A program made the translations under genes and the position numbers. A stretch of 42,851 nucleotides of DNA, taken from an uncultured Opitutia bacterium (lineage in GTDB: Bacteria; Verrucomicrobiota; Verrucomicrobiia; Opitutales; Opitutaceae). Shown here in pieces: positions 5,651 through 29,183 of the stretch. The notes below the pieces were generated by a model. The model was not told where the DNA came from. It was given only the letters and a program-made list of their open reading frames with translations, and ran no database searches. The first letter of the stretch is position 1. Every line of letters starts with the position of its first letter. Location of the stretch: contig CAITWF010000047.1 of assembly GCA_903896015.1 (NCBI GenBank), forward strand, positions 1-42,851, written 5' to 3'.

Positions 5651-5681
5651 AAGGCAGACCTTTTCGGGTCTGCCTTTTTTT
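5651..5681 (+). terminator. Rho-independent terminator after the TonB receptor gene
   Basis: A perfect 10-bp stem (AAGGCAGACC / GGTCTGCCTT) with the six-base loop TTTTCG is followed by a further run of T residues to 5681. It lies 53 bases after the TonB receptor stop codon and 30 bases before the next gene, so the next gene probably has its own promoter or depends on read-through. Confidence 0.9.
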
Positions 5682-5711
5682 CCCTGTCGATTTGTCGCCT
5701 GCGTTCCAACC

Positions 5712-7247: not shown

Positions 7248-7395
7248 TTGGCGTCAGCGGTTTGTCCGTCGCCCGAGAATTGCCATGCGATGGCCAAGAA
7301 TATCCATTCTCGTCGGTGCCTCGGGCCGCTAGTATGCTCTGAACGTCGGCTCGACACAGTCGCAAAATCGCGGCTGAGTTTTGAATCCCCATCCC

Positions 7396-9866: not shown

Positions 9867-9875
9867 GACTCTCCG

Positions 9876-13800: not shown

Positions 13801-14532
13801 CGCCGTGCCGTCCGCATGGAGGAACTCGCTTTCGAGCTCGCGTGCCGTGCGATCGGCCATGCTCGCCGCGTAGGCTTGATAGATCAGCGTCGATTCTATC
13901 CCGGGAAAGCAGTCTGTGAGCCGCTGCCCGATGAGCGCTTCGCGCGGCCGGCGCGCATGTTCGGCGCCGACTTGGTTGACGTAGAGATAGCGCCAGTCGG
14001 GGCTAAAAATCATGCAGCCCCCCTTGAGAAACTCCAGGGTGGTGCGGAAGCGGCTCTCGCTGGCGCCCAGGGCCTCCTGCGCCAGTTTCTGTGCGGTGAT
14101 GTCACGGATCATTCCCTCGAAACACACGTGACCCTGCTCGTCCCGCAGGGTGCGCGCGTCTGCCGAGATCCAGATCACGGTGCCATCGCGGCGGCGCATC
14201 TGCGTCTCGAAATTGCGCACGATGCCGGCGGTTTGCCGCGTGGTCTGGAACCGGACGCGTTCGGCGCTGTTCACGTAGAATTGCGCGGCCAAATCTTTGA
14301 CACTGGCGATCATCTCGCCAGGCGAAGCGTAGCCGGCGAGTAGGGCGAGCGCTTGGTTGGCGAGGAGCAACCGTCCGTCGGGCGAAGTGCGATAGAGGCC
14401 ATCCACGGCATTTTCAAAAAAACGCCGATAGGGTTCGTCGTCTGGAGGAGAGGAATCCCCCGACGCAGCGCCGCTGGATGTGGAGGCCATTTCGACGGGG
14501 TCAGTATCGTCCCATCGGGTTCTTGGGTCCAC
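10867..14532 (-). CDS. soluble multi-PAS/GAF hybrid histidine kinase with receiver domain
   Basis: This 1221-residue protein has no signal peptide or membrane segment and is probably cytoplasmic. Domains in order are three PAS domains (about 35-150, 155-270, 275-390), a GAF domain (about 418-565), two more PAS domains (about 580-705 and 712-832), HisKA with phospho-acceptor His858 in GIAHDLNN, HATPase_c (NARDAM, ADTGHGIP, GTGLGLS, about 960-1075), and a C-terminal receiver with Asp1149 in LVLVDLMMP and Lys in LMKPF. The start is a GTG at 14532 with GGGAA six bases upstream; an ATG at 14490 is the alternative. It follows the last sulfatase by 74 bases on the same strand, so it may be read through from that operon. 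No DNA-binding output domain is attached and no partner regulator is adjacent. Confidence 0.92.
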   Translation of the reverse strand: MDPRTRWDDTDPVEMASTSSGAASGDSSPPDDEPYRRFFENAVDGLYRTSPDGRLLLANQALALLAGYASPGEMIASVKDLAAQFYVNSAERVRFQTTRQTAGIVRNFETQMRRRDGTVIWISADARTLRDEQGHVCFEGMIRDITAQKLAQEALGASESRFRTTLEFLKGGCMIFSPDWRYLYVNQVGAEHARRPREALIGQRLTDCFPGIESTLIYQAYAASMADRTARELESEFLHADGTAAWYHVNIQPVPEGLFVLTQEISARKRAELGAAYLGEIVRSSDDAIIGKNLSGIITSWNPGAEKVFGYTAAEAIGQPMLIVFPPERVDEEAEILARIARGERLHHYETVRLRKDGRRIHVSATISPIYDAAGNIIGASKIARDITLHKQQEHEIQRLTRLYAALSQINQAIVMTPERAALYTKVCEVLVTFGGFKMAWIGRLDPATLKVNPVGKWGDHSGYLDAIEITIENRPHGQGPAGTAIREGRTYLCNDSLNDPRTLPWRDEAKRADFRSSATFPISEDGAVCGALCVYSDEIGFFQDKEVALLEEAAGDVSFALDNFGREEARRKAEEALRESERFTRAVLDSLTAHIAVLDAHGNILAVNQAWRAFSAVNGAPATNSSAAENYLAVCEATTGPEAEIARQVAQGIRDVIDGRRVRFECEYPCHTPQEQLWFSVHVTRFPGPGPCRVVVAHENITQRKLHEIALLRSEDRFRVLVENIREVFWLSELDTRKILYISPAYLAIWGRTPESLYASNPCWADTVHEEDRARVSKAAETKQHLGTYDETYRVVRPDGTIRWVRARAFPVQGAHAEVTRIVGVAEDVTTERELDAKLLHTQRLEAIGTLSAGIAHDLNNILAPMLMATSLLRTELSSPQNRELIAMIETGAQRGANIIRQLLTFSRGLEGDRTAVQLRHIMSDMVAIARETFPRNITVTQDIARDLSLVSADATQLHQVLMNLCVNARDAMPHGGTLILTGRNVALNSDTLPAHPDAKPGRYACVTVADTGHGIPASLVDRIFEPFFTTKAVGKGTGLGLSTAIGIVKSHGGFVTVDSAPGRGASFSIYLPALEDFTTATSSEVGLALPRGSGQLILVVDDESSIRLVTQATLRHWNYRVESAVDGQQGLALFLQHRADVRLVLVDLMMPVMGGSKLMRKLWELEPDLKMIAMSGMVPDDQRAELHALNVHDTLMKPFQPEELLARVAQALNDPTPRS

Positions 14533-14606: not shown

Positions 14607-16037
14607 TTAATCACCGCCGCGATTCTCGGGTGCGACAAAAGGGAAAGCCGCATCGTGGGCCGAACGGCTCCATTCGAGCAACATCGCGCGGTGATCGTTG
14701 AGAATCGCCGCGGACGCAGAATCCTCGGCGAGATTTACGAGTTCGCCCGGATCTTTTTGTAGGTCGACCAACGATTCGCGGTGTTGGCCCTGATCGTAGA
14801 CGCAATATTTGTAGCGCTCGGTGCGCAGCATCCGGCCGGCGGGCATCATCATTATGCCAAGCAGAGGCACGCCTTGCACGAGATGGTTGGAGGAGACCAC
14901 GAATCGGCGCGGATCGGGGCCCGTGGCGCCCAGCGCGGCGGCGCGCTGACTGAGGCCGGGGAGCGCGGTGGGTGTCGGGATGCCCGCGAAATCGCACAGT
15001 GTGGGAATTAGGTCGAGGCCGGTTTGCACGAAACGGTTGGAGGTCGACGCGCGTTTCCCACCGGGCGGACACACGATGAAGGGCACGCGGATCGACTCCT
15101 CGTAGAGTACGGTTTTCTGGTTCCAGCCGTGGGCGCCCTGGCAGTCGCCGTGGTCGACGCTAAAAACGATCAGTGTGTCGTCGGCGTGGCCCGACGCCGC
15201 GAGGGACGCGAGCACGCGGCCGATCAGTGCGTCGGTGCGCTCGATCATGCGATAATAGGCCCAGCGGTATTGGCGCCACTTGCCTTCGTCGAAATTGCGG
15301 ACCGGAAACATCGGTGCGGCCTGATAGGAGCGGCGCGCAAACACCATCGCCTCGGGTTCGCCGGTGGGTGCGGCGCGGTTCGGCGGCGCTGGCGGACATT
15401 GATCGGGCGGCGGGGGCGCGCCGATTTCGCCGTCGGGCAGTGGCTCACCGCGGGCCCACTCGGCGATGTTGTGCGGGTCGATGAAGGAGGCCACGAGCAG
15501 GAACGGGCGTTCGTGCTTGCGCTGGAGAAACGTGGTGATGGCTGCGGGAGTCGCGGCGTCGGCGCCATTGTTTTTGATGTTGGCCGTGTAGTCGAAACCG
15601 CTCGTCGCCGAATTTTCGATCGGGGTCAGCACGTGCCATTTGCCGACATAGCCGGTGTTGTAGCCGGCGGCGCGGAAGTAGGTGCCCATCGTCGGAAACT
15701 TACCGACGTCGAACGGCACGCGCTCATTGTTCTGAATGCCGGTCTCGTGAGGATAGCGCCCCGTGAACATCGCCGTGCGCGACGGCACGCAGATGGGGTT
15801 AGACGAATAGGCACGCGTGAAAAACGTGCCGCGGGCGGCGAGACTGTCCATGTTGGGCGTCTTGAGGTAGCGGTCGCCCTGCCGGCAACTCAGCGCGTCG
15901 GCGGCCTGCTGATCGGTGAGGATGATCAGGATGTTGGGCCGGGCGGCTTCGGCGGCGACGGCCGCGCTGCGTAGGGCGAAACCGAGCAGCAGAAGGAGCG
16001 CACCGAGACGGCGGGACAAGAAAAAGGCGGAAGACAT
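14607..16037 (-). CDS. secreted sulfatase (S1 family, choline-sulfatase-like branch)
   Basis: This 476-residue protein has a signal peptide (residues about 1-29). The formylglycine motif is ICVPSRTAMFTGRYP, with the converted cysteine at residue 83. The first metal site reads LTDQQ, with Asp42 and Gln replacing the second Asp, as in choline-sulfatase-like members. Other family signs are GKWHVL, FVSVDHGD-type metal ligands (IVFSVDHGDCQGAHG) and RTERYKYCVY near the end. The ATG at 16037 is chosen over one at 16073 because the signal peptide begins there. It should remove sulfate esters from the glycan or its fragments in the periplasm and needs a formylglycine-generating enzyme encoded elsewhere. 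It is the ninth and last gene of the sulfatase operon. Confidence 0.93.
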   Translation of the reverse strand: MSSAFFLSRRLGALLLLLGFALRSAAVAAEAARPNILIILTDQQAADALSCRQGDRYLKTPNMDSLAARGTFFTRAYSSNPICVPSRTAMFTGRYPHETGIQNNERVPFDVGKFPTMGTYFRAAGYNTGYVGKWHVLTPIENSATSGFDYTANIKNNGADAATPAAITTFLQRKHERPFLLVASFIDPHNIAEWARGEPLPDGEIGAPPPPDQCPPAPPNRAAPTGEPEAMVFARRSYQAAPMFPVRNFDEGKWRQYRWAYYRMIERTDALIGRVLASLAASGHADDTLIVFSVDHGDCQGAHGWNQKTVLYEESIRVPFIVCPPGGKRASTSNRFVQTGLDLIPTLCDFAGIPTPTALPGLSQRAAALGATGPDPRRFVVSSNHLVQGVPLLGIMMMPAGRMLRTERYKYCVYDQGQHRESLVDLQKDPGELVNLAEDSASAAILNDHRAMLLEWSRSAHDAAFPFVAPENRGGD

Positions 16038-16063
16038 GGGGTGAAGAGAAAAAAGACCGGGTG

Positions 16064-17029
16064 CTAGTGCCACGACCAGGATTTGGCGAACGAGTCCTCG
16101 CCGTCGGTGAAGGTCGTCCAGACTGCGTGCGTTTTGGGATCAACCGCCACGTTCGTCGCGTTGGTCGCGGTGTAGATTTTTTCCAATGCGACGAAGTTAG
16201 TCCCGGCGCAGTCGACCGGATAAATCCAGTCGCGTCCAGCGCAGTAGAGCCGGCGAACTTCGGCATCGAAGGCGATTTGCCCCACGTGTTCTCCGATTGC
16301 GGCGGTGGCGGTCACGCGGCCCGTCTTGAGATCGAGCGCTACGAGTTGGCCGTTGTCGCCCGCCACGAACAGGCGGCCGCGCGCCGCGTCGAGAGCGAGG
16401 CCGCGCGGATGCAGGGCGGGCGAGGTCGGCCAGTGGGCAACGAGTGCATTGGATTTGGAGTCGATCACTGACACCGCGCTTGTCGCACTGCCGGTCAGAT
16501 AGAGCCGGGAAGCCTGAGGGTCCCAGATCAAGTCCTCGGGGTCCTCGGGGATCGGGATTGTCTGCACGACTTTCCGCGCGTCGGGATCAACGACCCAGAG
16601 CGCGGTCCCCTGGTCGGCCGTCACGTAGAGCCGCGCCTGCAGGGGCTCGAAGAGCAGGGCGCCCGTCTCACCCGGCAGCGGGATCGAACCCGTTTCCTTG
16701 AGCGTGGTGCGATCGATGATCGCGACGCGCCGGTCATCCTGGACGCTTGCAAAATAGCGGCTAGCCTTGGGATCGACGGCGAGCGCGACCACCGGACCGA
16801 CTTCGACTCGGGCGATGAGTTGGCTGGCATCGAGGTCGAAGATTTCGACGATGCCGTCGTTCACGTGTGAGGCGAGCAGTCGGTGGGCGACCGGATCTAG
16901 GGTCAGCAATCCAAATTTGCCGTGGACATCATCGATCGCGATCGCCGGGCCGGGGACAAACACTCCCGGCGCGGCGACGAGTGCCATCGTGCCGAAGAGC
17001 AACCACAGCAATCCGCGCGCAAACCGCAT
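16064..17029 (-). CDS. secreted YncE-like beta-propeller protein
   Basis: This 321-residue protein has a signal peptide (MRFARGLLWLLFGTMALVAA) and then six or seven propeller repeats of the YVTN/YncE type, for example RLYVTADQGTALWVVDPD, RLYLTGSATSAVSVIDSK and RLFVAGDNGQLVALDLK. Such proteins bind ligands or partners and rarely have their own enzyme activity. Its ATG overlaps the stop codon of the preceding sulfatase as TGATG, so the two are translationally coupled, and the next sulfatase begins 26 bases after its stop. That tight link suggests a periplasmic role with the sulfatases, such as glycan binding or scaffolding, but no function is proven. The ATG at 17029 is supported by the overlap and the signal peptide. 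Confidence 0.85.
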   Translation of the reverse strand: MRFARGLLWLLFGTMALVAAPGVFVPGPAIAIDDVHGKFGLLTLDPVAHRLLASHVNDGIVEIFDLDASQLIARVEVGPVVALAVDPKASRYFASVQDDRRVAIIDRTTLKETGSIPLPGETGALLFEPLQARLYVTADQGTALWVVDPDARKVVQTIPIPEDPEDLIWDPQASRLYLTGSATSAVSVIDSKSNALVAHWPTSPALHPRGLALDAARGRLFVAGDNGQLVALDLKTGRVTATAAIGEHVGQIAFDAEVRRLYCAGRDWIYPVDCAGTNFVALEKIYTATNATNVAVDPKTHAVWTTFTDGEDSFAKSWSWH

Positions 17030-18570
17030 CACGAATGCGATGGATTCGCAGCTGGGAGCGCACCCTTCCAACCCGCGCGCCACTGCGCCGTCAATCGCTC
17101 CACCAGTGCGGAATTCTCGGGCTTTGCCGCAATATTCACGTTTTCCTGTGGGTCAGTTTGATGATCGTAAAGTTCGACGGCGTCGATTTGCGAATGATCG
17201 GCGCGACCGACCCAGACGGTGAAACGGTAACGGTCCGTGCGCATCGAGTAGCCCATCAGTCCGCCCTTCTGGCCGCGCGGATACTGGCTGAACGCCGCCT
17301 GCTTCCACGGGCGTGCCGGATTCTCAACCAGCGGTTTAAAGCTGACGCCCTCCAGGCCGTCGGGCTGCGGTACGCCGGCGAGATCGCAGAGTGTCGGATA
17401 AATGTCGACGAACTCCACCAGCGCGTCGCTGTGCGCACCGGTGTTCTTCATGCCGGGAACGGAGAGTATTAGCGGAGCGTTGGTGTCGTTTTCGGTGTTG
17501 GTGTGCTTCCCCCACGCGGCGTGCTCGCCGAGTTTCCAACCGTGGTCGCCCCACAGCACGACGATGGTAGTCTTGCTGAGACCAAGGCGGTCCAGTTCGG
17601 CCAGCACGCGGCCAATTTGGGCGTCGGCGTAGCTCACGCCGGCGAAGTAGGCTTGCTTGAGCTGGCGCGCGAGTTCCGCCGGGATCGGGCCGGTCGCAGG
17701 TACGCCCTTGTAGGCGCGCATCTCGCCGTCGTTCGGGTTGACGGCATAGCTCGGCGCGCCTTCGGGGAGAAACGGATTGGGCGCGAGATCGATTTCCGCG
17801 GGGTTGTAGAGATCCCAGTATTTTTTCGGCGCGACCCACGGCAGATGCGGCTTGCGGAAGCCGACCGCGAGGAAGAAGGGACCGGACCGTTTGCTGATGG
17901 CCCGTAGGTCGGCGATCGCGAGGTCGGTGATCTTGCCGTCTTCATAATAGTTGTCGGGCACGTCGGCATTCTCGAAGACCGGACCGCGCGAATTGGCCAC
18001 GGTGGGCACCTTCTCCTTTTTGCCGTCCGGCCCTTTTTTGTTTTTCTTTCCCTTGGCCGGCGTGTCGGCGGGGTAGATGTCGTCATCGGCCGGCGCATCG
18101 CGATACGCCGCGTTTTCGGGCAAGGCATAAACGGGCGCCTTGGGATCCTCCCACGGCACGGACCACGTGCGAGGATCGTTCAGCCCGGGGTGATAAATCT
18201 TGCCCACGCCCTGAACGAAGTAGCCGCTGCGCTGGAACTGTTCGCCGAGGGTAATCACTTCCGGCAAGGCGACGCGAAACGAGGTCACCAAGTCCCAGAC
18301 TTTCGACGTGTCGGGCCGGGTGCCGGTCATCACGACGGTGCGCGACGGCGAACACACCGCCTGCTGCACGTAGGCGCGATTGAAGACGATGCCGGACTTG
18401 GCGAGCGCGTCGATGTTTGGACTCTTGATATAGTTTTTGCCGTAGCAGCCGAGCTCCGGGCGCAAGTCATCTACGGCGATGAAGAGCACGTTGGGGCGCT
18501 GGGCCGGATCGGCGGCGCGAGCCAGCCCGCAAGCCAGCAAACAGGGAACGAGGCGGAGGAGCAGTTTCAT
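17029..18570 (-). CDS. secreted sulfatase, iduronate-2-sulfatase-like
   Basis: This 513-residue S1 sulfatase has a signal peptide (MKLLLRLVPCLLACGLARAA). It has the metal-binding pair Asp34/Asp35 in FIAVDDLRPELG, the formylglycine motif with Cys73 in AVCSPSRTVVMTG followed by TRPDTSKVWDL, and VVLWGDHGWKLGEH near residue 355. The phrases DDLRPELG and TRPDT..VWDL are hallmarks of iduronate-2-sulfatase-like enzymes, which remove 2-O-sulfate from uronates; in bacteria the branch also serves algal glycans. A Lys-rich insert (PAKGKKNKKGPDGKKEK) sits near residue 190. It is a close paralogue of the sulfatase at 20977-22539. The start at 18570 is set by the signal peptide. Confidence 0.93.
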   Translation of the reverse strand: MKLLLRLVPCLLACGLARAADPAQRPNVLFIAVDDLRPELGCYGKNYIKSPNIDALAKSGIVFNRAYVQQAVCSPSRTVVMTGTRPDTSKVWDLVTSFRVALPEVITLGEQFQRSGYFVQGVGKIYHPGLNDPRTWSVPWEDPKAPVYALPENAAYRDAPADDDIYPADTPAKGKKNKKGPDGKKEKVPTVANSRGPVFENADVPDNYYEDGKITDLAIADLRAISKRSGPFFLAVGFRKPHLPWVAPKKYWDLYNPAEIDLAPNPFLPEGAPSYAVNPNDGEMRAYKGVPATGPIPAELARQLKQAYFAGVSYADAQIGRVLAELDRLGLSKTTIVVLWGDHGWKLGEHAAWGKHTNTENDTNAPLILSVPGMKNTGAHSDALVEFVDIYPTLCDLAGVPQPDGLEGVSFKPLVENPARPWKQAAFSQYPRGQKGGLMGYSMRTDRYRFTVWVGRADHSQIDAVELYDHQTDPQENVNIAAKPENSALVERLTAQWRAGWKGALPAANPSHS

Positions 18571-18640
18571 GGATTTGAACGGAGCGAGGGCGAGTGAAAT
18601 GTGCGCGCGAGATTGCGGCACGAATTTTTCGTCGGCGGAT

Positions 18641-20194
18641 CTAGTTTCCGCGGGCCTTGTGTTTCTTGACCGGGGCCGTCGTGGAGGTCAGCCCGGCGGG
18701 AGCCGGACCTTCGAGCGAGAGGTCGCCCGCCTGGCGACGCGCGATGATCCAAGCCGGGCCGACGTCGTCGGGGGTGAGCGGCTTGAAGCCGGCCGCTTCC
18801 TTGGCCTCGCTCCAGTCGGCCACGATCTCGCGTGTGGCGAATCCTTCCGCAGCCGCTGGCAGGCGGTTCGTGCCGCCCAGGAGCACATTCCCGACAAAAC
18901 GGTTGGGCAGAAATTTAAGTCCATCCAACGGCGCCCTGACGTCCGGAGTGGCGCCCGCGACTGAGACGCCGCCTTGCGGACGCACAAAACGGTTGTTCTC
19001 GAAGAGGCACTCCTCGGGCAGCAAAACCTGCTGTGAAGCCGGCCAGTGCTTCTTGTAGTCCGCTCCAATTTCCAAATCGAGATCGGCGTTACCTACGAGG
19101 ACGTTGTCGGTCAGCGTCAGAAACTTAACCTGCGGGTAAGTGGGGATGAGCACCTCCGCTTTACGTCCCTTCGCCCCGCCGCCCCGCTGAGGTTTCAGGT
19201 CGGCCTTGAAGTCGGCGGTCAGGGCATGGTCGATAAATTCGCCGCAGGATACCCGGATGCCATAGCCGCAGTGGGAGACAAAGTTTCCGCGGACCGTGTT
19301 GTGCTGGCCGGACATCCGCAGACCTTCCGCTCCAGAAACGCCCTGACCGAGAATGATATTCCCGGCGACCGTGTTGTGATTGCCGCGGCGGATATTGAGA
19401 CAACCCCGCGTGGCGAGAATCGTGTTCTGGAGCACCTGGTTGTAGTTGGACTTTAGCGAAATGATTTCGACGCCCTCGCCATCGGCGTGATCGAACAGGT
19501 TGCCCTGGATGAGGAAATAGGCGCCGTCGTCATCCCGATCTTCCATCTTGCCCGTGCCCCACACACGGATGTCCTCGCGCCCATTGCCATCGCGGTAGGG
19601 GATGTTCTTAAAATAGGAGCGCACGACGGCGTTGTGGCGGCTGCTCTCAAGCGCGTTGCCGATGAGCGGCTCCAGATTGGCTTTCCCCTTGAAGTAGCAC
19701 CGGTCGATGACGTTGCTGTCGCCCTGAAAGAAAACCCAATAGTAGTTGGTCTCAAACACCGCCGGGTTGTAGTCCACGATCGCTGTATTCCGAACGAGGC
19801 CATGGTGGGAATTAAACTGGATGACTGCGCCCGACTTGATCGCACCGTTTTGAAACAGCAACCCGTCGACGGTCACGTAGGGCGCGTTAATTTCCAGACG
19901 GGAGGATCCACTCAGCGTGACCTGGCCCGGAATTTCGGCCCGGAGGACCACGGGCTGGCCAAATTCCCCTCCCTTGGTAGGCACGATTTGGACGTCCTTC
20001 CATTCGCCAGCCTTCAGCGTGATGACATCGCCCGGCCTCGCGCTTTTAAGCGCCGATGCAAGCTCGGATGATTTCTGAACCAGCACTTCGCGGGCTTCCA
20101 AGGACGCAGCCGCCGGGCCCGTCGTCGAAAATACGAGTCCAAGAAAAACAAAATTTCCCTGATGCAGGGAGTGAATCAGGCGGCGGAGAATCAT
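18641..20194 (-). CDS. polysaccharide lyase family 6 (chondroitinase-B/alginate-lyase-like)
   Basis: This 517-residue protein has a signal peptide (residues about 1-30) and then a right-handed parallel beta-helix. Family 6 signatures are DVITLKAGEWKDVQI (55-70), PYVTVDGLLFQNGAI (105-119), GREDIRVWG (205-213), the core VEIISLKSNYNQ (242-253) and LNIRRGNHNTV (266-276). The Lys in EIISLKS (248) and the Arg pair in NIRRG (269-270) match the catalytic Lys250 and Arg271 of Pedobacter chondroitinase B almost by number. Family 6 enzymes cleave by beta-elimination next to a uronate, mostly in alginate and in some members dermatan sulfate. Alginate carries no sulfate, so the five sulfatases around this gene favour a sulfated substrate. 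It lies sixth in the operon. Confidence 0.88.
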   Translation of the reverse strand: MILRRLIHSLHQGNFVFLGLVFSTTGPAAASLEAREVLVQKSSELASALKSARPGDVITLKAGEWKDVQIVPTKGGEFGQPVVLRAEIPGQVTLSGSSRLEINAPYVTVDGLLFQNGAIKSGAVIQFNSHHGLVRNTAIVDYNPAVFETNYYWVFFQGDSNVIDRCYFKGKANLEPLIGNALESSRHNAVVRSYFKNIPYRDGNGREDIRVWGTGKMEDRDDDGAYFLIQGNLFDHADGEGVEIISLKSNYNQVLQNTILATRGCLNIRRGNHNTVAGNIILGQGVSGAEGLRMSGQHNTVRGNFVSHCGYGIRVSCGEFIDHALTADFKADLKPQRGGGAKGRKAEVLIPTYPQVKFLTLTDNVLVGNADLDLEIGADYKKHWPASQQVLLPEECLFENNRFVRPQGGVSVAGATPDVRAPLDGLKFLPNRFVGNVLLGGTNRLPAAAEGFATREIVADWSEAKEAAGFKPLTPDDVGPAWIIARRQAGDLSLEGPAPAGLTSTTAPVKKHKARGN

Positions 20195-20207
20195 GGGCGG
20201 CGCAACC

Positions 20208-20975
20208 TCATTGGGACGTGGCCGGCGCGTTCACCTTGAAGTGGCGAATCACGAGGTGGCTGCGGACGGTGCGAAAGGCAAAGTAGCCACCATTCAGCGG
20301 ATGAGGATCCGCATAGGAAAAGATTTTTTCGCCGTCCCGCCAGAATTCCGCGGTACCGTCCCGTACCACAAGTTTGATCTGATAGGCGTGATTGGGTTTC
20401 AGCAAAAATTGAGGGGCGCGCAGATCGTGTTCGGGCAGCAGCGGGCGCTCAGGTGTGCCATCGTATCGGCGGAACCGCGTCGTCGTGTTCTTGTTGCCAC
20501 CGTAACCCACATAATAGGTCAGCAAGCTGTCATAATCGGCAAAACGCCCGGAACGCCCGGCGGGCAACGAGCCATCCGGTCGGGCCGGATCCTGCGCCAT
20601 CCAAAAACAATTCAGATCGGACAGGCGATCGTTTGGGCCGCCGGACGTCACGACCTCGGCCTCATAGGAGATTACCACCGGCGCGGTCAACCGGTGACGA
20701 AACCACAACGTCGTGCCGCCGACGTCCTCGATCACCAGCGCTCCCGCCTTCGCCGCGACGCTGCCGCCGGTGACTTGCTCGGCGGACCATTGGTCGAGGC
20801 CCCGATCAAACTCTTCGCCGAAGAGGAGAGCGCCCGGGCGCTCCGCCGCGGGCAGGTGTCGCGCTGTTCCAAGCAGCAGTGCGACGACCGTGAGCCGTCC
20901 GATCCAGCGGCGGACGACGCGCGTGCGGTTCGACGCGCCGGTCGTCCTGTGCGTGTGTTGGCGGAATACGAGCAT
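20208..20975 (-). CDS. secreted DUF6250-like beta-sandwich protein
   Basis: This 255-residue protein has a long basic N-terminus and a signal segment (LTVVALLLGTARHLPAAE). It is then all-beta with the motifs NDRLSDLNCFWMAQDP, YYVGYGGNKNTTTRFRRYD, LLKPNHAYQIKLVV, DGEKIFSY and GGYFAFRTVRSHLVIRHFKV. The set matches what I recall of DUF6250, a concanavalin-like sandwich found in glycan-use loci of Bacteroidetes and Verrucomicrobia with no settled activity. It starts one base after the upstream sulfatase stop and ends 13 bases before the family 6 lyase, so it belongs to that operon. A lectin, lyase or hydrolase role is possible; I cannot choose. Confidence 0.75.
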   Translation of the reverse strand: MLVFRQHTHRTTGASNRTRVVRRWIGRLTVVALLLGTARHLPAAERPGALLFGEEFDRGLDQWSAEQVTGGSVAAKAGALVIEDVGGTTLWFRHRLTAPVVISYEAEVVTSGGPNDRLSDLNCFWMAQDPARPDGSLPAGRSGRFADYDSLLTYYVGYGGNKNTTTRFRRYDGTPERPLLPEHDLRAPQFLLKPNHAYQIKLVVRDGTAEFWRDGEKIFSYADPHPLNGGYFAFRTVRSHLVIRHFKVNAPATSQ

Positions 20976-20976
20976 C

Positions 20977-22539
20977 TCAGGGCATGCGCGCGAGGGGGAG
21001 GGCGCCCGCGGGACCCTTGCGCCACTGCGTCATCAGCTTCTCGACGAGTTCGCCGTTGGCGGGGTCCTTGGCGATGTTGGTGTTCTCCTGCGGATCGTAG
21101 AGTTCGTCGTAGAGCTCGACGGCATCGATCTTCGAGTGGTCGTCGCGCGCCACCCAGACTGTGAGGCGGTAGCGTTCGGTGCGCATCGAGTAGCCCATGA
21201 GTGGTCCGCGGTGTGTCTGACCGGCGCCGCGCGGATACTGGCTGAACGCCGCCTGCTTCCACGGGCGGTTCGGATCGTCGAGAAGGGGCTTGAAGCTGAG
21301 ACCCTCGAGGTGCTTCGGCAGCGGCAGTCCGGCGAGTTCGGAAAGCGTCGGATAAATGTCCACGAATTCCACGAAGGACTTGGAATGCGCGCCCGCCGAC
21401 TTCATGCCGGGCACCGAGAGGATCAACGCGGTGTTAGTGTCGTTCTCGCAGGTGCTGTGTTTGCACCAAGCATCGTGCTCGCCGAGCTTCCAGCCGTGAT
21501 CGCCCCAGAGAATGATGATGGTGTTCTTGCGCAGGCCGAGCCGGTCGAGCTCGTCCACCACTTTGCCGATTTGAGCGTCGGTGTAGCTGATTGAGGCGTA
21601 GTAGCCGTGCTTGAGGGTGCGCGCGAGATCGTCGGGGATTGAGGTGGTGGGGATGCCGTAGTAGTTTCGCAGTTCGCCGCCGGGAAGAATCGCGTAGTCG
21701 GGCGCGTCTTTCGGTCGAAATTTATTCGGAGCGAGTTCGATCTTCGCCGGATCGTAGAGATCCCAGTATTTCTTCGGCGAGACGAAGGGCAGGTGCGGCT
21801 TGATGAAGCCGACCGCGAGGAAGAAGGGCTCCTTTTTCTTGCTGATTTCCTGGAGCGTCGAGACTGCGAGGTCCGCGACTTTGCCGTCTTGGTAGAAATT
21901 GTCAGGCACGTCGGCGCACTCGTAGGCCGGGCCGCGGGAGTTGATTCCGCCGGCCGTGGTTTCGTCGAACGACGCGGGCGCCTTGGCCTTGCCTTTGGCT
22001 TTGCCTGCGCCCTTTGCAGCTGGAGCTTTGCCATCGTCGTCGGGATCAACCTCGAAGCGGCGCTCGTTGAGCTTCACGTTTTCCGGGAGGGCATAGACCG
22101 GTGACTTGGGCGTGCCCCACGGCACAGACCACGACAATGGATCATCGTAGCCGCCGTGATAAATTTTGCCCATGCCTTGGACGAAATAGCCGTTGTTCTT
22201 GAACAACTGGGGCAGCGTCACGACATCGGGCAGGGCCGCGCGGAAATGCGTCACGAGGTCCCAAACTTTGGTGGTGTCGGGCCGCGTGCCGGTCATGAGA
22301 CTTGAGCGCGTTGGCGAGCAGACGGCCTGCTGGCAATAGGCGTGGTGAAACGTGATGCCTGACTGCGCGAGCCGATCCATGTTCGGGCTGTGGATGTAGG
22401 TCGCGCCGTAGGCGCCAAACTCGGGTCGCATGTCATCGACGGCGATGAAGAGGATGTTGGGTCGCTCTGCCGGAGCGGCGGCGCGGGCAAGCCCGAGCGC
22501 GAAAACGCAACTCGCGGTGAGGGAGAAAAATAATTTCAT
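20977..22539 (-). CDS. secreted sulfatase, iduronate-2-sulfatase-like (paralogue of 17029-18570)
   Basis: This 520-residue S1 sulfatase has a signal peptide (MKLFFSLTASCVFALGLARA). The metal pair is in FIAVDDMRPEFG (Asp35/Asp36) and the formylglycine Cys74 is in AVCSPTRSSLMTG, followed by TRPDTTKVWDL. Other signs are IIILWGDHGWKLGEH near residue 355 and a C-terminal QYPRGAG..MGYSMRTERYRLTVWV block shared with the other copy. It carries its own Lys/Ala/Gly-rich insert (AAKGAGKAKGKAKAP) near residue 190, in the same place as the insert of its paralogue but with different sequence. Two related enzymes in one operon suggest two sulfate positions or two fragment sizes. The start at 22539 is set by the signal peptide; no strong ribosome-binding site is visible. 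Confidence 0.93.
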   Translation of the reverse strand: MKLFFSLTASCVFALGLARAAAPAERPNILFIAVDDMRPEFGAYGATYIHSPNMDRLAQSGITFHHAYCQQAVCSPTRSSLMTGTRPDTTKVWDLVTHFRAALPDVVTLPQLFKNNGYFVQGMGKIYHGGYDDPLSWSVPWGTPKSPVYALPENVKLNERRFEVDPDDDGKAPAAKGAGKAKGKAKAPASFDETTAGGINSRGPAYECADVPDNFYQDGKVADLAVSTLQEISKKKEPFFLAVGFIKPHLPFVSPKKYWDLYDPAKIELAPNKFRPKDAPDYAILPGGELRNYYGIPTTSIPDDLARTLKHGYYASISYTDAQIGKVVDELDRLGLRKNTIIILWGDHGWKLGEHDAWCKHSTCENDTNTALILSVPGMKSAGAHSKSFVEFVDIYPTLSELAGLPLPKHLEGLSFKPLLDDPNRPWKQAAFSQYPRGAGQTHRGPLMGYSMRTERYRLTVWVARDDHSKIDAVELYDELYDPQENTNIAKDPANGELVEKLMTQWRKGPAGALPLARMP

Positions 22540-22574
22540 GGAGGCGGAACGGATTGGGAGGGAAGTCGCGAGGC

Positions 22575-24980
22575 TCAAAACCGGCTGCCCTTGTGATTGA
22601 TAGTGTAGGTGAAGACGAACGAACGTCCATCGCCCAAGAGCCGCGTCGTTGCGCCACTGGTGCCGGCGCGGAGATAGGCCTTATCAAAGGCGTTGTTGAT
22701 GTTGATCGCGAAGGTGTGCGTCAGGTGGCCTTGGGTTTGGAGTCGGTAGCGGACCCCGAGGCTCCAAAGATTGTAGGAGGGGGCCTTGAGCGCCCATTGG
22801 CCGGTGGAAAATGTGACGATCGGCACGCGGTTAACCGTGACGAGATTGTCGCCGGCGGTCGGCGCTTCGGTCGGTGTCGCGCCGACAAATGTGACGCCGA
22901 GATTGGCGGAAAAACCTTTCACGCCGCCGCGGGTCGGCGCGTATTTGAGACTGACGCTGCCGTTATAAGGCGCGACGTATTGAACCTTGCGACCGACGGC
23001 CTCGGGACTGGCACTACCATAATTGGTGTAGATCGAATGCACATTGCCGTAGCTGACGAGAAAGGAGAGTTCGTCCGTCATGACCCAGTTAACGTCGGCC
23101 TCAAAACCGCGGACTAATTGATTGCCGTCCCGGCGATTCACCGAGAGTCCCGTGTTGGGATCGAAATCGCTGACCTGGACGTTCTGACGGGTGACGTAGT
23201 AGCCGCAGAGCGTGTAGTTGAGGTGCTCGTTGAGCAGGGAGCCCTTGAAGCCGTAATCCCAACCTTCCGCGGTTTCAGATTTATAGGTGGGATTGGCGAC
23301 ATCGACGGGGTTGTCACCTTGGGCGATGAAGTAGCTCTGACTCCAGTTGGCGAAGACCCGGAAATTATCCTTCAGTTTGTAGTTTACGCCCATGTTGGGT
23401 TTGAGCGCCGTCAGTGTCTTGTCGATCATGTCGCCGACATGGTAGTTCGGGAGAAAGGGAGTGAACGACGAGGCGGCCGTGAGGAAATCCTGCTCGCGGT
23501 AGCGGATGTTATCGAAGCGGGCGCCGGCAAAGGCCAGCAACTTGCCTGAGAAGAAACTCGATTGTTGACGCAGGAGTCCGCCGGTCACCGTGGTGCGGCG
23601 GTGCATGATGCGTGTGGGAACCAGCCCGGCCGACTGCCAGAAGTATTTGGTGAAATAGTTAATCGTTCCGATCGGATTAAGATTGGTGTCCAATGGTACG
23701 ACGCGCGCCGTGTTCCAGGCGACGATATCGGGATTGGTCGAGGTGCCGTATTGGACCGTCGGGTCCCAGCGGTAGTAGTCATTGACGTCGAACGTCACCA
23801 ACGTGCGGTGTTCGATTTTGTGGTCATTGGTCCAGTAGTGGGCGAGCAGGTCGCCCTGGAAGCCGCCGCCGTCCTCATTGATGATGCCGCGGGTGGGATT
23901 CGCAGTGCGGGTGGTGGAAGGGGCCGCGTTGATCGCAGCAGACGAGGTGTCGACAACGATGGTGCCCCAATTGAGGTTGCTGTTATAGTCCCAGCGCCGG
24001 GCGCGATAGTAATTGCTCGAGACGCGGGCACTGAAGACGGAGTTGAAGCTCTTTTCGTAGATACCCGTCATCGAGGTGTTGCCGCGTTCAAGCCAGCTGA
24101 CCGGACCCATTTCGTTCACGCCGGCAAGATTCAAGGCGTAGCCAACCGCGACGTCGTCGGCATCGGCGGTCGCCGAGGTCCCCGTGCCTTTCTTGTCGAG
24201 AATCATCGGGGCCGTCGCCAGCGGGGAGTTGCGATACTGATCGAAATATTCGAGGGAGAAAAAGGCCTTTGATTTGTCGGGAAACACATGGTCGATCGCC
24301 AGGTAGGCCTCCTTGTTGTGGATGTTGGAGTAAGGCACGTCGTAGCCGCGCTTGTAGTCGCTCACGCTCACAAGGTAGTCGGTCTTGCCGAGTTTTTCCT
24401 GGAAGAGCGGGCCCGTGGTCTCGGCCGTGACCCGCTTGGTGTCGTAGTCGCCGTAGTTGAACGAGAGCTGATTGCTCGCGGTCGACTTGGGCGCCTTGGA
24501 GATCATGTTCATCATGCCGCCAGGAGATGAGCGGCCATAGATGGCGGCGCTCGGGCCCTTGATGATTTCAATGCGATCAATGTTGCTGGAACCGTAACGG
24601 CCGAGACGGAAAAATCCGTCACGCAGCTGGTTCGAGGACGTGAAGCCGCGCAGGACGAAGTTGCCGCCGACGTCGAGTCCGGTGAACCCGCCGATCTGGG
24701 TGACATTGTCGCCCAAATCGAAAATGCCGAAGTCCTCCATGAACTCACTGGTCATCACGTTGACGCTGTAGGGCAGGTCGATGATTTGGGTCTTCACCCG
24801 ACTCCCGGTCATCGTCTCCGACGCGCCGTAACCGCCCACGGTGCTCGCCGTAACCTCGAAGTCGGAGAGTTGGACGGCCTCGGACTTGGCTGGGGCGGGC
24901 GTTGTCTGAGCGCAGAGTTTTCCAAAGGCAAAAAAGGCTGCGAGGAGCGCGATGGGGAAGCGGAGGGGAGGGTAATGCAT
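22575..24980 (-). CDS. TonB-dependent outer-membrane receptor
   Basis: This 801-residue receptor has a signal peptide (ALLAAFFAFGKLCAQT), a TonB-box-like SEAVQLSDFEVTAS near residue 34 and a plug with IDRIEIIKGPSAAIYGRSSP near residue 135. A long beta-barrel follows, ending in an aromatic residue (GSRF). As with the receptor at 3312 it lacks the SusC N-terminal extension and no SusD is present. It is third in the sulfatase operon, so it probably imports the sulfated oligosaccharides or the products of surface cleavage. The two receptors of the window differ throughout, which argues against recent duplication. Confidence 0.93.
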   Translation of the reverse strand: MHYPPLRFPIALLAAFFAFGKLCAQTTPAPAKSEAVQLSDFEVTASTVGGYGASETMTGSRVKTQIIDLPYSVNVMTSEFMEDFGIFDLGDNVTQIGGFTGLDVGGNFVLRGFTSSNQLRDGFFRLGRYGSSNIDRIEIIKGPSAAIYGRSSPGGMMNMISKAPKSTASNQLSFNYGDYDTKRVTAETTGPLFQEKLGKTDYLVSVSDYKRGYDVPYSNIHNKEAYLAIDHVFPDKSKAFFSLEYFDQYRNSPLATAPMILDKKGTGTSATADADDVAVGYALNLAGVNEMGPVSWLERGNTSMTGIYEKSFNSVFSARVSSNYYRARRWDYNSNLNWGTIVVDTSSAAINAAPSTTRTANPTRGIINEDGGGFQGDLLAHYWTNDHKIEHRTLVTFDVNDYYRWDPTVQYGTSTNPDIVAWNTARVVPLDTNLNPIGTINYFTKYFWQSAGLVPTRIMHRRTTVTGGLLRQQSSFFSGKLLAFAGARFDNIRYREQDFLTAASSFTPFLPNYHVGDMIDKTLTALKPNMGVNYKLKDNFRVFANWSQSYFIAQGDNPVDVANPTYKSETAEGWDYGFKGSLLNEHLNYTLCGYYVTRQNVQVSDFDPNTGLSVNRRDGNQLVRGFEADVNWVMTDELSFLVSYGNVHSIYTNYGSASPEAVGRKVQYVAPYNGSVSLKYAPTRGGVKGFSANLGVTFVGATPTEAPTAGDNLVTVNRVPIVTFSTGQWALKAPSYNLWSLGVRYRLQTQGHLTHTFAININNAFDKAYLRAGTSGATTRLLGDGRSFVFTYTINHKGSRF

Positions 24981-25043
24981 AGCGGTTGGGTTGTAGGTTG
25001 GCTTAAAAAAGGGACGGAGAAGCAGAGCGAAGGGCAGGCGGCG

Positions 25044-26798
25044 TTAGAGTTTTTTGATCAGATTGGTGATCGTTTCCCGAGGAGCGGCGGCCTGGACTGC
25101 CGGCCACGGTTGCACGCCGACGCGCTTGGCCCAGGCGTCCCATTGCGCGGCGAGGCGGGTGGCGAGCTCCGGCTGCTGAGCCGAAAGATCGTGCTGCTCG
25201 GTACGGTCTGCCTCCATGTCGAAAAGTTTCCAGCCGCCAGGATACTTCGTCACGAGCTTCCACTTGCCGTCGCGGATGGCGCGGTTGCCCTCGTGCTCCC
25301 AGAAGATCGGCTGAGCGCGCCCAAGCGATTTTCCAGCGAGTGCGGAGCGAAGGCTCACGCCCTCCATCGGCAGGATCGTTTCATCCCTGAACCGCGTCGG
25401 ATAATTTGCCCCGGCCAGATCGACACAGGTCGCCATGAGGTCGATGACGTGGCCGGGCTGCGGCTCGAGCTGGCCGTCGCGTGCGGCGGGAATGCCGGCG
25501 GGCCAATGGACGATGAGTGGCGTTGAGATGCCGCCCTCTTCGTCCCAGTGCTTGTATTCGCGGAAGGGCGTGTTGCTGACGTTGGCCCAGCCGCGGCCGT
25601 AGGCGATAAACGTGTCGGCCGGTCCCGGCATGACGCCGTAGCCCATGCGAATTGGCCAGCCGTCGCGCGTTTGTGAAGGCTCATTGCCGTAAAAGGCGAC
25701 ATCCTTCTCGAGCACCGGCAGGGTCGGATGGTCAGCGCGCGGGGTGAAATCGGTGTCGCGTCCCTTGGGCTCGGCGCAGCCGCCATTGTCCTGAAGAAAA
25801 CAAATGATCGTATTGTCGAGCTGGCCCTGCGCTTTCAGTTCGGCGACGATCCGGCCGACGCCCTGGTCCATCACGTCCACCATGGCGGCGTAAACCTCCA
25901 TGCAGCGCGCCTCGAACGGTCGATTCTTTACTTTGCTCCAATCTTCCGCCGGTGGCGGCAGACCCCACGCGGCGTCGACGACGCCGAGTTTTTTTTGCCG
26001 TTCCCAACGCGCTGCGGCGATCGCGCCATAGCCGGAATCGTAGCGGCTGCGGTATTTCGCGATGTCGCTCTCGCGGGCCTGCATCGGCCAGTGCGCCGCG
26101 GTGTAGGCGACATACATGAAGAACGGCTGCGCGGCATGATCGTGCTGATGTTCGCGGATGAAGCGTGTCGTCTGATCGGTGATCGCGTCCGTGTAATAGT
26201 ATTCCGCCGGGTGGTATTCCGGATCGTTGACCGGCGTGATTTCGCGGTTGTCGCGGATGAGGCCATGCGGATCCCAATAGCTGCCGGAGCCATTGATCGT
26301 GCCGTAGTAGCGGTCAAAGCCGCGCTGCAGCGGCCAATTGTGATTGTCGGTGAGCGCCTCGACCGTCTTGCCGGGCGTGACGTGCCATTTGCCGACCGCG
26401 TAGGTGCGGTAACCGGCGGGCTTGAGCGCCTCGGCGATCGTGACGTTACGCCGATTCAGATCTCCCCGATAGGCGTCGAAGCCGCGATCTTCGACCATGT
26501 GGCCGACTCCGGCCTGATGGGCATAGAGCCCGGTGAGGAGCGACGCGCGCGAAGGACAGCAGCGGGCGTTATTGTAGAACTGCGTGAAGCGCACACCTTG
26601 TGCCGCGAGCGCATCGAGATTCGGCGTGGCGATCTCGCTGCCGAAGCAGCCTAGGTCGGAATAGCCCATGTCGTCCGACAGAATAATGATGATGTTCGGT
26701 CGGGGTGCGGCGGCCCGCAGGCTGCCCCCGAGTATCAGTGCCAGCGCGGCGACGGATAATCCACGCGCGAATCGACTGGCCGGGATGAGTGAGCGCAT
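25044..26798 (-). CDS. secreted arylsulfatase (S1 family, AslA-like)
   Basis: This 584-residue protein has a signal peptide (residues about 1-31), the metal pair in IILSDDMGYSDLGCFG (Asp42/Asp43), and the formylglycine motif RCCPSRASLLTGLYAHQAG with Cys80 as the converted residue. It also has AVGKWHVTPG, FLQDNGGCAEPKGRD, and a C-terminal block FWEHEGNRAIRDGKWKLV typical of arylsulfatase A-like bacterial enzymes. At 584 residues it is in the long branch. It starts nine bases after the stop of the first sulfatase and ends 63 bases before the TonB receptor. The sulfated position it attacks is unknown. Confidence 0.93.
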   Translation of the reverse strand: MRSLIPASRFARGLSVAALALILGGSLRAAAPRPNIIIILSDDMGYSDLGCFGSEIATPNLDALAAQGVRFTQFYNNARCCPSRASLLTGLYAHQAGVGHMVEDRGFDAYRGDLNRRNVTIAEALKPAGYRTYAVGKWHVTPGKTVEALTDNHNWPLQRGFDRYYGTINGSGSYWDPHGLIRDNREITPVNDPEYHPAEYYYTDAITDQTTRFIREHQHDHAAQPFFMYVAYTAAHWPMQARESDIAKYRSRYDSGYGAIAAARWERQKKLGVVDAAWGLPPPAEDWSKVKNRPFEARCMEVYAAMVDVMDQGVGRIVAELKAQGQLDNTIICFLQDNGGCAEPKGRDTDFTPRADHPTLPVLEKDVAFYGNEPSQTRDGWPIRMGYGVMPGPADTFIAYGRGWANVSNTPFREYKHWDEEGGISTPLIVHWPAGIPAARDGQLEPQPGHVIDLMATCVDLAGANYPTRFRDETILPMEGVSLRSALAGKSLGRAQPIFWEHEGNRAIRDGKWKLVTKYPGGWKLFDMEADRTEQHDLSAQQPELATRLAAQWDAWAKRVGVQPWPAVQAAAPRETITNLIKKL

Positions 26799-26807
26799 GG
26801 CGATGAA

Positions 26808-28154
26808 TTACGGGGCACTTGCCTTCTTGCGCTTCGCGCGATTCTCCTCACGGCCAATGTGCCGGCCCGTGCCGTCGCCGTCGTCAAGGTAACCGCCCGC
26901 GGGATTGAGTTGCGTGAGCGCTGCCTGCAGGTGCTGGCGGGCGGCGATCGCCGCAGCGTCCTTCGTGTCGGCGGGCACCAGCCTTTCGGCAAAGGGCGCG
27001 TCGCTCAAATCGAATAGTTCACTTTTCTCGGTGAGTTTCCATTTTTGATCGGCGACATACCAGTTGCGCGCCAGCTCGACGAACACCCAGTCGCGGGGCT
27101 GACCTTTTTCGCCGCGCACCTGCGGCAAGAAACTGCGGCCGTCGATCACGCGGTTGGCCGGAAGCGGCGCGCCGGTCAGTGCCGCGAACGTCGGGAAGAA
27201 GTCCGACGAGTCGATCATATCGTCCAGGACTTTGCCCGCTGGAGTTACGCCGGGCCAGTTGACGCAGAAGGGGACACGGCTGCCGCCCTCGAACATCGAG
27301 CCTTTGGCGCCGAGCAAACGCCGGCCGCCGATCGTGGCGGTGGGCGCCTCGCCGTTGGCGGTGCCGTTGTCGCCAAAATAGATGACGAGCGTGTTTTCGC
27401 GGAGGTGCATGCGCTCGAGCTCCGCGATGAGTTTGCCGACGAGCTTGTCCATGTAGCGGATGTTGTCGGCGTAGAGTTCGTGGATGTCGGTGGTCCCCGG
27501 TTTGCTGTCGGGCGTCGGCAGAATCTCGGTGTGGATGTGCGACATCGAGTAATACACATAGAAAGGATCGTCGCGATGCTGGGTGAGAAACTCGACGAGG
27601 TGCTGGTGCATCACCTCGGGCATGTATTCCTTGTCGCGCAGCGCCACGGTCTTGCCGTTCAACTCATAGTCTTTGCCCTTGTCCTGGGTGTTCCAGTAGA
27701 TGCCGCTGCCCTTGAACTTCAGGTAGTCGTCGAATCCGAAGTCAGCCGGCCCCAGCGGGAGCTGGCCCCATTTACCGATCGAGGCCGTGACGTAGCCGGC
27801 CTTTTTCAGGACGGTCGGCATCATGATTTCCTGAGCAGGCGTAAAGCGGCCCGTGGCGTCCTGGTTGGTCGCGCCGGTGCGAAACACGTAGCGTCCCGTG
27901 AGAATCGTCGCGCGCGATGGGCCGCAGAGCGGCTCGGCGTAGGCGTGAGTAAAGGTGATGCCGCCCTTCGCCAGCGCGTCGATGTTGGGCGTCTTGCAGC
28001 GATCGGCGCCGGAGAAACTGATGTCGCCGATCCCGACGTCATCGCCCAGAATGAAGATGATGTTGGGCTTTGCAGGTTTGGCTGGGGCCGCGAAAGAGTG
28101 AACGGAGAATGCGAGCAGGCCGCTTAGGACGAGGGCGAGGTGGAGAGATTTCAT
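26808..28154 (-). CDS. secreted sulfatase (S1 family), first gene of the operon
   Basis: This 448-residue protein has a signal peptide (MKSLHLALVLSGLLAFSVHSFAA is the region) and a metal pair in FILGDDVGIGDISFSG (Asp38/Asp39). The formylglycine motif is LCGPSRATILTGRYVFRTG, with Cys77. Further signs are ASIGKWGQLP, VIYFGDNGTANGE and a C-terminal LVPADTKDAAAIAARQHLQ tail rich in Ala. The start at 28154 is chosen over an in-frame ATG at 28175 because the signal peptide begins there. About 310 bases without a gene lie upstream, so the operon promoter is expected there. Confidence 0.92.
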   Translation of the reverse strand: MKSLHLALVLSGLLAFSVHSFAAPAKPAKPNIIFILGDDVGIGDISFSGADRCKTPNIDALAKGGITFTHAYAEPLCGPSRATILTGRYVFRTGATNQDATGRFTPAQEIMMPTVLKKAGYVTASIGKWGQLPLGPADFGFDDYLKFKGSGIYWNTQDKGKDYELNGKTVALRDKEYMPEVMHQHLVEFLTQHRDDPFYVYYSMSHIHTEILPTPDSKPGTTDIHELYADNIRYMDKLVGKLIAELERMHLRENTLVIYFGDNGTANGEAPTATIGGRRLLGAKGSMFEGGSRVPFCVNWPGVTPAGKVLDDMIDSSDFFPTFAALTGAPLPANRVIDGRSFLPQVRGEKGQPRDWVFVELARNWYVADQKWKLTEKSELFDLSDAPFAERLVPADTKDAAAIAARQHLQAALTQLNPAGGYLDDGDGTGRHIGREENRAKRKKASAP

Positions 28155-28211
28155 GGGTTGGGAGAACTGAAGCACGAACAGACGATGGAGTTCCTGCCGG
28201 CTGACGAGACG

Positions 28212-29165: not shown

Positions 29166-29183
29166 GTATGAGGCGGATCATAC
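29166..29183. promoter_or_regulatory. palindrome at the kinase-regulator gene junction
   Basis: On the minus strand GTATGATCCGCCTCATAC has perfect 6-base arms (GTATGA/TCATAC) with a six-base spacer. It overlaps the stop codon of the kinase gene and lies 70 bases before the regulator start, so it may be an autoregulatory site for the response regulator. A half-like GTATGA also occurs at 28347-28352 before the sulfatase operon. Confidence 0.3.

Follow-up and report, generated by a model that had tools for sequence, protein, structure and literature searches.

The closest described systems to the locus considered here are gene clusters built around a TonB-type receptor. Loci of this kind for carbohydrate utilization (CUT loci) have been on record from freshwater Verrucomicrobia since 2017 (PMC5615132, in the sections available). 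A 2025 report, in its accessible part, covered five Verrucomicrobiota strains, found SusCD in none, and termed such TonB clusters "PUL-like" (PMC11980603). Freshwater Verrucomicrobiota are rich in sulfatases, though sulfated polysaccharides are regarded as marine. We analyzed a window of 42,851 nucleotides from an uncultured Opitutia bacterium, the window being the whole stretch of DNA under study, and we propose that nine consecutive genes within it probably form a TonB-type carbohydrate-utilization (CUT or "PUL-like") locus for a sulfated, uronic-acid-containing polysaccharide. Five of these genes code for S1 sulfatases of the cysteine type; the other four code for a TonB-dependent receptor (TBDT), a lyase of family PL6, a DUF6250 protein, and a YncE-like propeller. 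An ORF check of the window found all nine minus-strand ORFs open at the coordinates below, which are listed together with the flanking genes.

7381-10835, opposite strand to the run: ABC sugar transporter
10867-14532, minus strand (same strand as the run): PAS/GAF hybrid kinase, 74 bases downstream of the nine genes
14607-16073, minus strand: S1 sulfatase (PF00884, E 1.5e-50; FGly motif CVPSR)
16064-17083, minus strand: YncE-like beta-propeller (TIGR02276 above cut-off)
17029-18621, minus strand: S2 sulfatase (PF00884; FGly motif CSPSR)
18641-20194, minus strand: PL6-family lyase (PF14592, E 2.4e-49)
20208-20975, minus strand: DUF6250 protein (PF19763, E 5.1e-67)
20977-22578, minus strand: S3 sulfatase (PF00884; FGly motif CSPTR)
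22575-24980, minus strand: TBDT (PF00593 and PF07715)
25044-26798, minus strand: S4 sulfatase (PF00884, E 6.3e-63; FGly motif CCPSR)
26808-28175, minus strand: S5 sulfatase (PF00884, E 5.3e-53; FGly motif CGPSR)
28466-29095, minus strand: LuxR-type response regulator, a possible regulator, 290 bases upstream of the run
29178-32204, minus strand: Reg_prop sensor kinase, a possible regulator, upstream and beside the LuxR-type regulator

The original prediction described nine close, partly overlapping minus-strand genes, and this agrees with the junctions, which in transcription order from S5 to S1 measure +9, +63, -4, +1, +13, +19, -55, and -10 bases. The end previously given for S5, 28154, corresponds to an in-frame ATG seven codons into the ORF and is followed by a signal-peptide-like stretch. 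In the stretch scanned, no minus-strand terminator-like site falls inside a junction of the nine genes, and both terminator-like sites (19 observed vs 15.0, sd 4.0, in shuffles) and promoter-like sites (2 observed vs 3.4, sd 1.5) occur at chance level; the nine genes are presumably cotranscribed. The edges of the run are unclean in the source genome, given the same-strand kinase downstream and the regulators upstream. All nine proteins have exported-type N-termini by a crude test, each with a hydrophobic stretch (12-residue mean hydropathy 1.78-2.68, compared with 1.13 for the regulator and 0.31 for the PAS kinase). The TonB receptor, the family 6 lyase, and the DUF6250 protein had been correctly identified at the outset, and the claim of five distinct S1 sulfatases stands insofar as five PF00884 genes are present, all with a Cys-type FGly motif (CxPxR), but not fully as to their distinctness, S2 and S3 being paralogs of 63% identity. 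The genome contains 28 PF00884 matches in 4.96 Mb, one of them a 38-position fragment, a density from which simple arithmetic gives a chance expectation of about 0.08 in 13.6 kb; a second cluster, of six sulfatases and this same fragment, is located elsewhere in the same genome (C114:2756-13245). No inner-membrane sugar transporter is found among the nine genes, an absence that counts against the proposed locus type.

Both the family profile PF14592 and the catalytic Lys/Arg pair place the lyase in PL6. Its best PDB match is 7o79 (E 6.8e-96, residues 37-438), which is probably Pedsa3628, an alginate lyase of the endo-poly-MG type (PMC4954714 Table 3), judging from an N-terminus that matches a cloning primer in the same paper; in both proteins a single residue is inserted ahead of the catalytic Lys stretch. 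Residues K248 and R269 match the catalytic pair Lys249/Arg270 of BcelPL6 (PMC6879350, sections available) and are present in 23/23 sequences, as are E240, E243, R206, E207, and R293. At the position of BcelPL6 His271 the lyase has Arg270, which is Arg in 21 of the 23 sequences and Gln in two, whereas Pedsa3628 has Ser. The predicted activity is β-elimination of uronan, and specificity within PL6 is not predictable from sequence (PMC4954714; PMC6879350, sections available). The best plasmid-encoded match to the lyase is only 30.6% identical. PF14592 carries the name Chondroitinase B, and if that name applied, and S2 and S3 were iduronate-2-sulfatases, the locus would scavenge a glycosaminoglycan (GAG) of animal or bacterial origin that resembles dermatan or heparan. 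However, the bit score of the lyase is 325 with 7o79 and 63 with chondroitinase B, and on this basis we rejected an assignment by Pfam name alone; BcelPL6, an alginate lyase, was likewise labeled chondroitinase B in a Pfam search (PMC6879350, sections available). The nearest solved relative appears to be an endo-poly-MG alginate lyase and not chondroitinase B.

The sulfatases bear on the same question. Human IDS (5fql) is matched by S2 (E 1.3e-82) and S3 (E 2.5e-74), and S1 matches a 2-O-GAG sulfatase (5g2t, E 3.7e-48) along with the yidJ-type 3b5q (E 8.5e-50), as would suit a GAG. Yet the ulvan xylose-2-sulfatase 6hhm (P18_S1_7) outscores IDS for both S2 (E 1e-94) and S3 (E 3.1e-105), and neither a GH88 nor a hexosaminidase is encoded among the nine genes, so that we consider GAG scavenging unlikely. 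Compared with 6hhm and 5fql, both S1_7 sulfatases and taken here as the nearest solved chains only, S2 and S3 keep DHGW and the FGly motif; their C-terminal SQYPR is shared with human IDS and differs in 6hhm. Among 20 members of the S2/S3 cluster, DHG(W/Y) is kept in all and SQYPR in 18; in the member at locus L109 the pattern used detected no FGly motif. The second IDS-like motif, MGYSMRT, is kept in only 11 of the 20, which counts against the sulfated-uronan reading. The nearest solved chains of S4 are 7all and the arylsulfatase 1hdh. Those of S5 are steryl-sulfatase and carrageenan/GalNAc sulfatases, whose scores are nearly equal, and its substrate is for this reason not readable. Support for sulfatase maturation in the source genome consists of one partial PF03781 match above the cut-off (E 4.7e-8), with no TIGR03942 match; maturation is thus not assured, which counts against the proposed reading.

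Comparison with relatives supports that the nine genes are a unit kept by evolution. A same-genus relative encodes eight of the nine in the same order and on the same strand with 75-90% protein identity, so the synteny check does not refute the unit, and in other Opitutae parts of the run again accompany this lyase. The one gene missing at that place in the same-genus copy is the TBDT; TBDT uptake is therefore not essential to the unit, and the gap counts against the proposed reading. We collected 24 PL6 loci by searching with two peptide patterns derived from three queries; the sample consequently leans toward close relatives, and absences in it are weak because contigs are short. S5-like sulfatases are found in 19 of these loci, S2/S3-like (iduronate-2-sulfatase-like) in 13, S4-like in five, and S1 in one; a TBDT 56-63% identical to that of the run is found in nine, DUF6250 in six, and the YncE-like propeller in one, from the same genus. 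Within the source genome itself, relatives of the TBDT reach at most 47% identity. In 10 of the 24 loci, an S2/S3-like sulfatase is the called gene directly adjoining PL6 on the same strand. At three related loci, L099-L101, the cluster extends into genes for a PF05426-type lyase and a GH3, which also suits the proposed locus. The 11 loci with no S2/S3-like sulfatase, several of them on short contigs, count against the sulfated-uronan reading. Freshwater origins are recorded for L099 (pond), L104 (Lac Pavin), and L109 (Lanier), and the remaining loci are presumably from lakes.

A sulfatase of some kind accompanies the lyase in 20/24 loci (the 19 with an S5-like member plus L098, with S3/S4), and in the Bacteroidetes MAG L115 the two genes abut. 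This pairing is too regular for the sulfatases to be free riders, and it argues against the idea that the locus serves plain alginate or another unsulfated uronan, its sulfatases merely sharing an operon while acting on other substrates. We regard that idea as very unlikely, despite the alginate lyase that is the closest solved relative, the additional PF05426-type lyase at L099-L101, and a separate stretch of the genome that combines an SSF transporter, heparinase II/III, and a PF05426 lyase.

Two products of the run had been described as having no known activity, which is fair. The DUF6250 protein, on which we found no literature, has a signal-like N-terminus followed by a β-sandwich, and it has no PDB sequence match at E ≤ 1. 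Its predicted model (mean pLDDT 72.8) has as its best fold match YesU of Bacillus subtilis (1oq1; Z 20.6, rmsd 2.7, 192 aligned; next entry Z 16.6), although identity is 19%, and the model resembles 3-keto-glycoside eliminase/hydratase chains as well (Z 14.8). YesU is a carbohydrate-binding protein that binds glycans, with GAGs mentioned in the available text (PMC6120924). The model thus has a YesU-like lectin fold, from which glycan binding is predicted. Conservation of at least 95% at 42 positions across 59 DUF6250 proteins hints at a role beyond that of a generic lectin. We rejected DUF6250 as a marker of the locus: it scores above cut-off in 74/150 genomes of the family, mostly elsewhere, and around it in 60 stretches PL6 is found in two, an S2/S3-type sulfatase in three (absent from 57), and any sulfatase match in 13. 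Among 90 neighbor proteins in 51 other DUF6250 stretches are seven sulfatases, six DAGK, five IPP transferases, and four pectate lyases. The propeller has no Pfam match above cut-off; in NCBIfam only the repeat model TIGR02276 passes, supporting a propeller, whereas the YncE model reaches 64 bits vs a cut-off of 400, so "YncE-like" is a loose label. As a guess, it may be a periplasmic scaffold or binding protein.

The best NCBIfam match of the TBDT is the siderophore-type TIGR01783 (128.6 bits vs a cut-off of 223.5), and no SusC model is among the 20 families listed at E ≤ 0.001; by these matches the TBDT would not be of the SusC type. The original prediction noted that the locus lacks SusD, and PF07980 is indeed absent from the entire genome, leaving the run with neither mark of a Bacteroidota-type SusCD locus. 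It further held that a locus without SusD is a different organization. We rejected this: PF07980 is missing from 387/387 genomes of the phylum, the source genome included, with a positive Bacteroides control, so that the absence marks the phylum and not the locus, and TonB loci without SusCD have already been published for Verrucomicrobiota (PMC11980603, accessible part).

We hypothesize that the operon-like cluster most likely enables this lake bacterium to desulfate an acidic, sulfated polysaccharide, cleave it, and take it up. The exported PL6 lyase would cut the uronate backbone by β-elimination, and the five exported sulfatases would take sulfates off different positions, the S2/S3 pair perhaps removing 2-O-sulfates from uronate or pentose; the polymer is possibly 2-O-sulfated. 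The DUF6250 protein may hold the polysaccharide chain, the TBDT would carry oligosaccharides across the outer membrane, and final saccharification and inner-membrane uptake would fall to genes elsewhere in the genome. The locus was said to lack an unsaturated uronyl hydrolase, which holds, and three PF07470 (GH88/GH105) matches are located elsewhere. Against this reading, we found no known sulfated polymer in nature for which cleavage by a Pedsa3628-like PL6 is proven. Five sulfatases vs one lyase, in freshwater with its low sulfate content, could instead point to sulfur scavenging, in which the enzymes mainly release sulfate and carbon use is secondary. Sulfated polysaccharides are mentioned as a sulfur source (PMC5615132, sections available), but no sulfate transporter or assimilation gene is among the nine, and neither lyase nor TBDT is necessary for sulfate release, making this account highly improbable.

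Returning to a locus for a sulfated uronan, the recurrence of the lyase-sulfatase core in lake genomes suggests that specialized genes for a particular polymer of this kind are probably worthwhile there, and PL6 gains a new specificity if the lyase prefers such a substrate. It is conceivable, though doubtful, that the Arg-for-His PL6 clade has turned to an undescribed sulfated lake polyuronide, traveling with the IDS-like pair, the receptor, and DUF6250 as a new lectin or enzyme; if so, the operon points to an unknown freshwater glycan, for example, cyanobacterial or algal mucilage. For one carrier of the cluster, Verrucomicrobia bacterium IMCC26134 (L101), the genome is complete and the name is of strain type, and the substrate may thus be testable by growth.

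No description of this cluster was found in the parts of the literature available on PL6, sulfatases, and Opitut- taxa together. The alginate system of Verruconatronum alginivorum resembles the run in its Verrucomicrobiota host, PL6 and PL38 lyases, TonB uptake, and lack of a canonical PUL, but its lyases are scattered and the text available does not mention sulfatases (PMC13274419). Like CUT loci (PMC5615132) and PUL-like TonB clusters (PMC11980603), in the sections available of both, the run combines a TBDT with exported polysaccharide-degrading enzymes. A response regulator and a Reg_prop kinase lie upstream of the run as possible associated regulators, but no response regulator or histidine kinase lies beside any of the 24 PL6 loci. 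Sulfatases adjoining lyase-like genes are reported from CUT loci as well, which, unlike the run, hold inner-membrane sugar transporters and GHs (PMC5615132, sections available). What sets the nine genes apart from the CUT loci described there is the association of a PL6 lyase with five sulfatases.

All nine genes of the minus-strand cluster were recovered when the open reading frames of the window were read (14607-28175). In transcription order (S5, S4, the TonB-dependent receptor or TBDT, S3, DUF6250, the PL6 lyase, S2, the YncE-like propeller and S1, the S labels being five sulfatases numbered by position), the junctions measure +9, +63, -4, +1, +13, +19, -55 and -10 bases. Family searches returned five S1-family sulfatases, a PL6-type lyase, DUF6250 and a TBDT, which bears out the gene content of the original prediction, with the YncE-like propeller over the cut-off for a repeat model only. 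A Cys-type FGly motif is present in all five sulfatases. S2 and S3, which flank DUF6250 and the lyase, are 63% identical; the remaining pairs are distant (about 25-39% over the aligned part). Given 28 PF00884 matches genome-wide, one a fragment, five within 13.6 kb far exceeds an even spread. Elsewhere in this genome, six sulfatase matches plus the fragment lie on a single strand within 10.5 kb (contig C114, 2756-13245), a higher density than in the window's cluster.

The original prediction named lack of conserved gene order in relatives as evidence against it. In a same-genus genome, eight genes (S5-S4-S3-DUF6250-PL6-S2-YncE-S1) are collinear and on the same strand as in the window, at 75-90% identity. 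There, S4 and S3 are just 23 bases apart at the place of the window's TBDT; the best TBDT of that genome is 46% identical and located elsewhere, and the genes around it are similar to those around a paralogue (47%) in the window genome. The gene downstream of this copy is not the PAS kinase that adjoins the window's cluster, and no regulator match occurs in the 0.96 kb upstream. A short contig from a third genus (L047) carries TBDT-DUF6250-S3.

Scanning named genomes with peptide patterns from lyase sequences yielded 24 PL6 loci, 23 titled verrucomicrobial and one from a Bacteroidetes MAG, a sample that leans to close relatives and in which short contigs weaken absences. S5-like genes are present in 19, S2/S3-like in 13, TBDT in 9, DUF6250 in 6, S4 in 5, and YncE and S1 in 1 each. 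By these counts, PL6 with S5-like and S2/S3-like sulfatases forms the core, TBDT, DUF6250 and S4 can be exchanged, and YncE and S1 are additions of the genus. TBDT and DUF6250 never co-occur in the 24 loci; they do in the window and L047. The window's upstream response regulator and sensor kinase and its PAS kinase match in 0/24. In five loci (L104, L105, L110, L112, L113), PL6 and S5 have DUF6807 and a GDSL hydrolase as neighbors, and most of these loci also carry RND efflux genes upstream. L108, L111 and L114 have no sulfatase match, the stretch of L114 stopping at PL6. In the Bacteroidetes MAG (L115), a sulfatase abuts a PL6 gene split across two called frames, and horizontal spread is possible.

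The lyase's best PDB match is 7o79 (325 bits, residues 37-438; chondroitinase B, 63 bits), which we take to be Pedsa3628 because its N-terminus matches the pedsa3628 primer in PMC4954714; Table 3 of that paper gives endo-poly-MG activity only. Across 23 lyases, the window's plus one from each of 22 loci in which the gene was called (L103 and L107, truncated by contig ends, were excluded), Lys248 and Arg269 never vary; position 270 is Arg in 21 and Gln in two. The window lyase carries Arg270 at the place of His271 in BcelPL6; the abstract of PMC6879350 lists this His among three conserved residues of the catalytic site. Pedsa3628 has Ser at the aligned residue, and therefore loss of the His alone is not new.

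The nearest solved structures to S2 and S3 are the ulvan entry 6hhm, then human iduronate-2-sulfatase (IDS); P18_S1_7 is described as an endo-xylose-2-sulfatase (PMC9096561). SQYPR occurs in 18 of 20 S2/S3-like cluster members and in IDS, and an MGYSMRT-type motif in 11 of the 20. For the S1 gene product, the closest solved chains are yidJ-type 3b5q and a 2-O-GAG sulfatase, and for S4 they are 7all and 1hdh; the PDB search gave no clear nearest chain for S5. A 2-O theme common to S1, S2 and S3 is offered as a suggestion only.

DUF6250 is over the cut-off in 74 of 150 family genomes. An AlphaFold2 model built from seven sequences (mean pLDDT 72.8, pTM 0.71) has as its best predicted fold match YesU (Foldseek E 2.4e-10, Z 20.6), followed by ERGIC-53 (Z 16.6). 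YesU is reported to bind fucosylated glycans, and interaction with GAG is discussed in the same source (PMC6120924). At lower rank, the model also matches 3-keto-glycoside eliminase/hydratase structures; these matches, together with 42 positions at least 95% conserved among 59 DUF6250 proteins, including five Arg at 100%, count against a simple lectin.

The window holds further genes outside the cluster:
2060-3085, LacI regulator, beside the 3312-10835 genes
3312-10835, plus strand, second TBDT-like gene (plug domain), 511-aa protein and ribose-type ABC sugar transporter (family search)
32214-34484, multihaem cytochrome c and TPR protein, immediately upstream of the sensor kinase gene
34996-39316, GH106-type rhamnosidase, then GDSL esterase with a galactose-binding-like domain
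39818-41185, HipA-type kinase gene

The 3312-10835 genes with the LacI regulator look like another carbohydrate locus. In the same-genus relative, the sequence downstream of S1 gives weak matches (31%) to the cytochrome c/TPR genes.

For the rest of the pathway, the genome encodes one PL6, three PF07470 and three PF07940 matches, and PF05426 in four places, two of them strong. One row near a contig end (L129, C51:74000-85105) comprises an SSF transporter, a hydroxyacid dehydrogenase, DUF2264, heparinase II/III and a PF05426 (alginate-lyase-family) gene. In L099-L101, a PF05426 lyase and GH3 lie within the cluster on its strand; the closest solved structures to that lyase are 3nfv and 8bdq, each of which bears the name alginate lyase. 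Sulfated polymers of cyanobacteria are described in PMC8205485; the uronic acid content given there for synechan, only 3.1%, speaks against synechan as the glycan.

The original prediction took the lack of SusD for a different organization, a reading we do not retain. PF07980 (SusD) has zero matches in the window genome and is found in 0/387 genomes of the phylum, this one counted, with a positive Bacteroides control; lack of SusD is therefore a trait of the phylum as a whole. The window's TBDT, judged by sequence, resembles siderophore-type receptors. The SusD-less state of Verrucomicrobiota is already in print: according to PMC11980603, SusCD was not found in five strains, whose TonB clusters were termed PUL-like, and for freshwater Verrucomicrobia PMC5615132 describes TBDR CUT loci as well as sulfatases adjoining putative pectin-lyase genes. 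The nine-gene cluster is real, conserved and sensible, and not a new organization beside these published TonB loci without SusCD.
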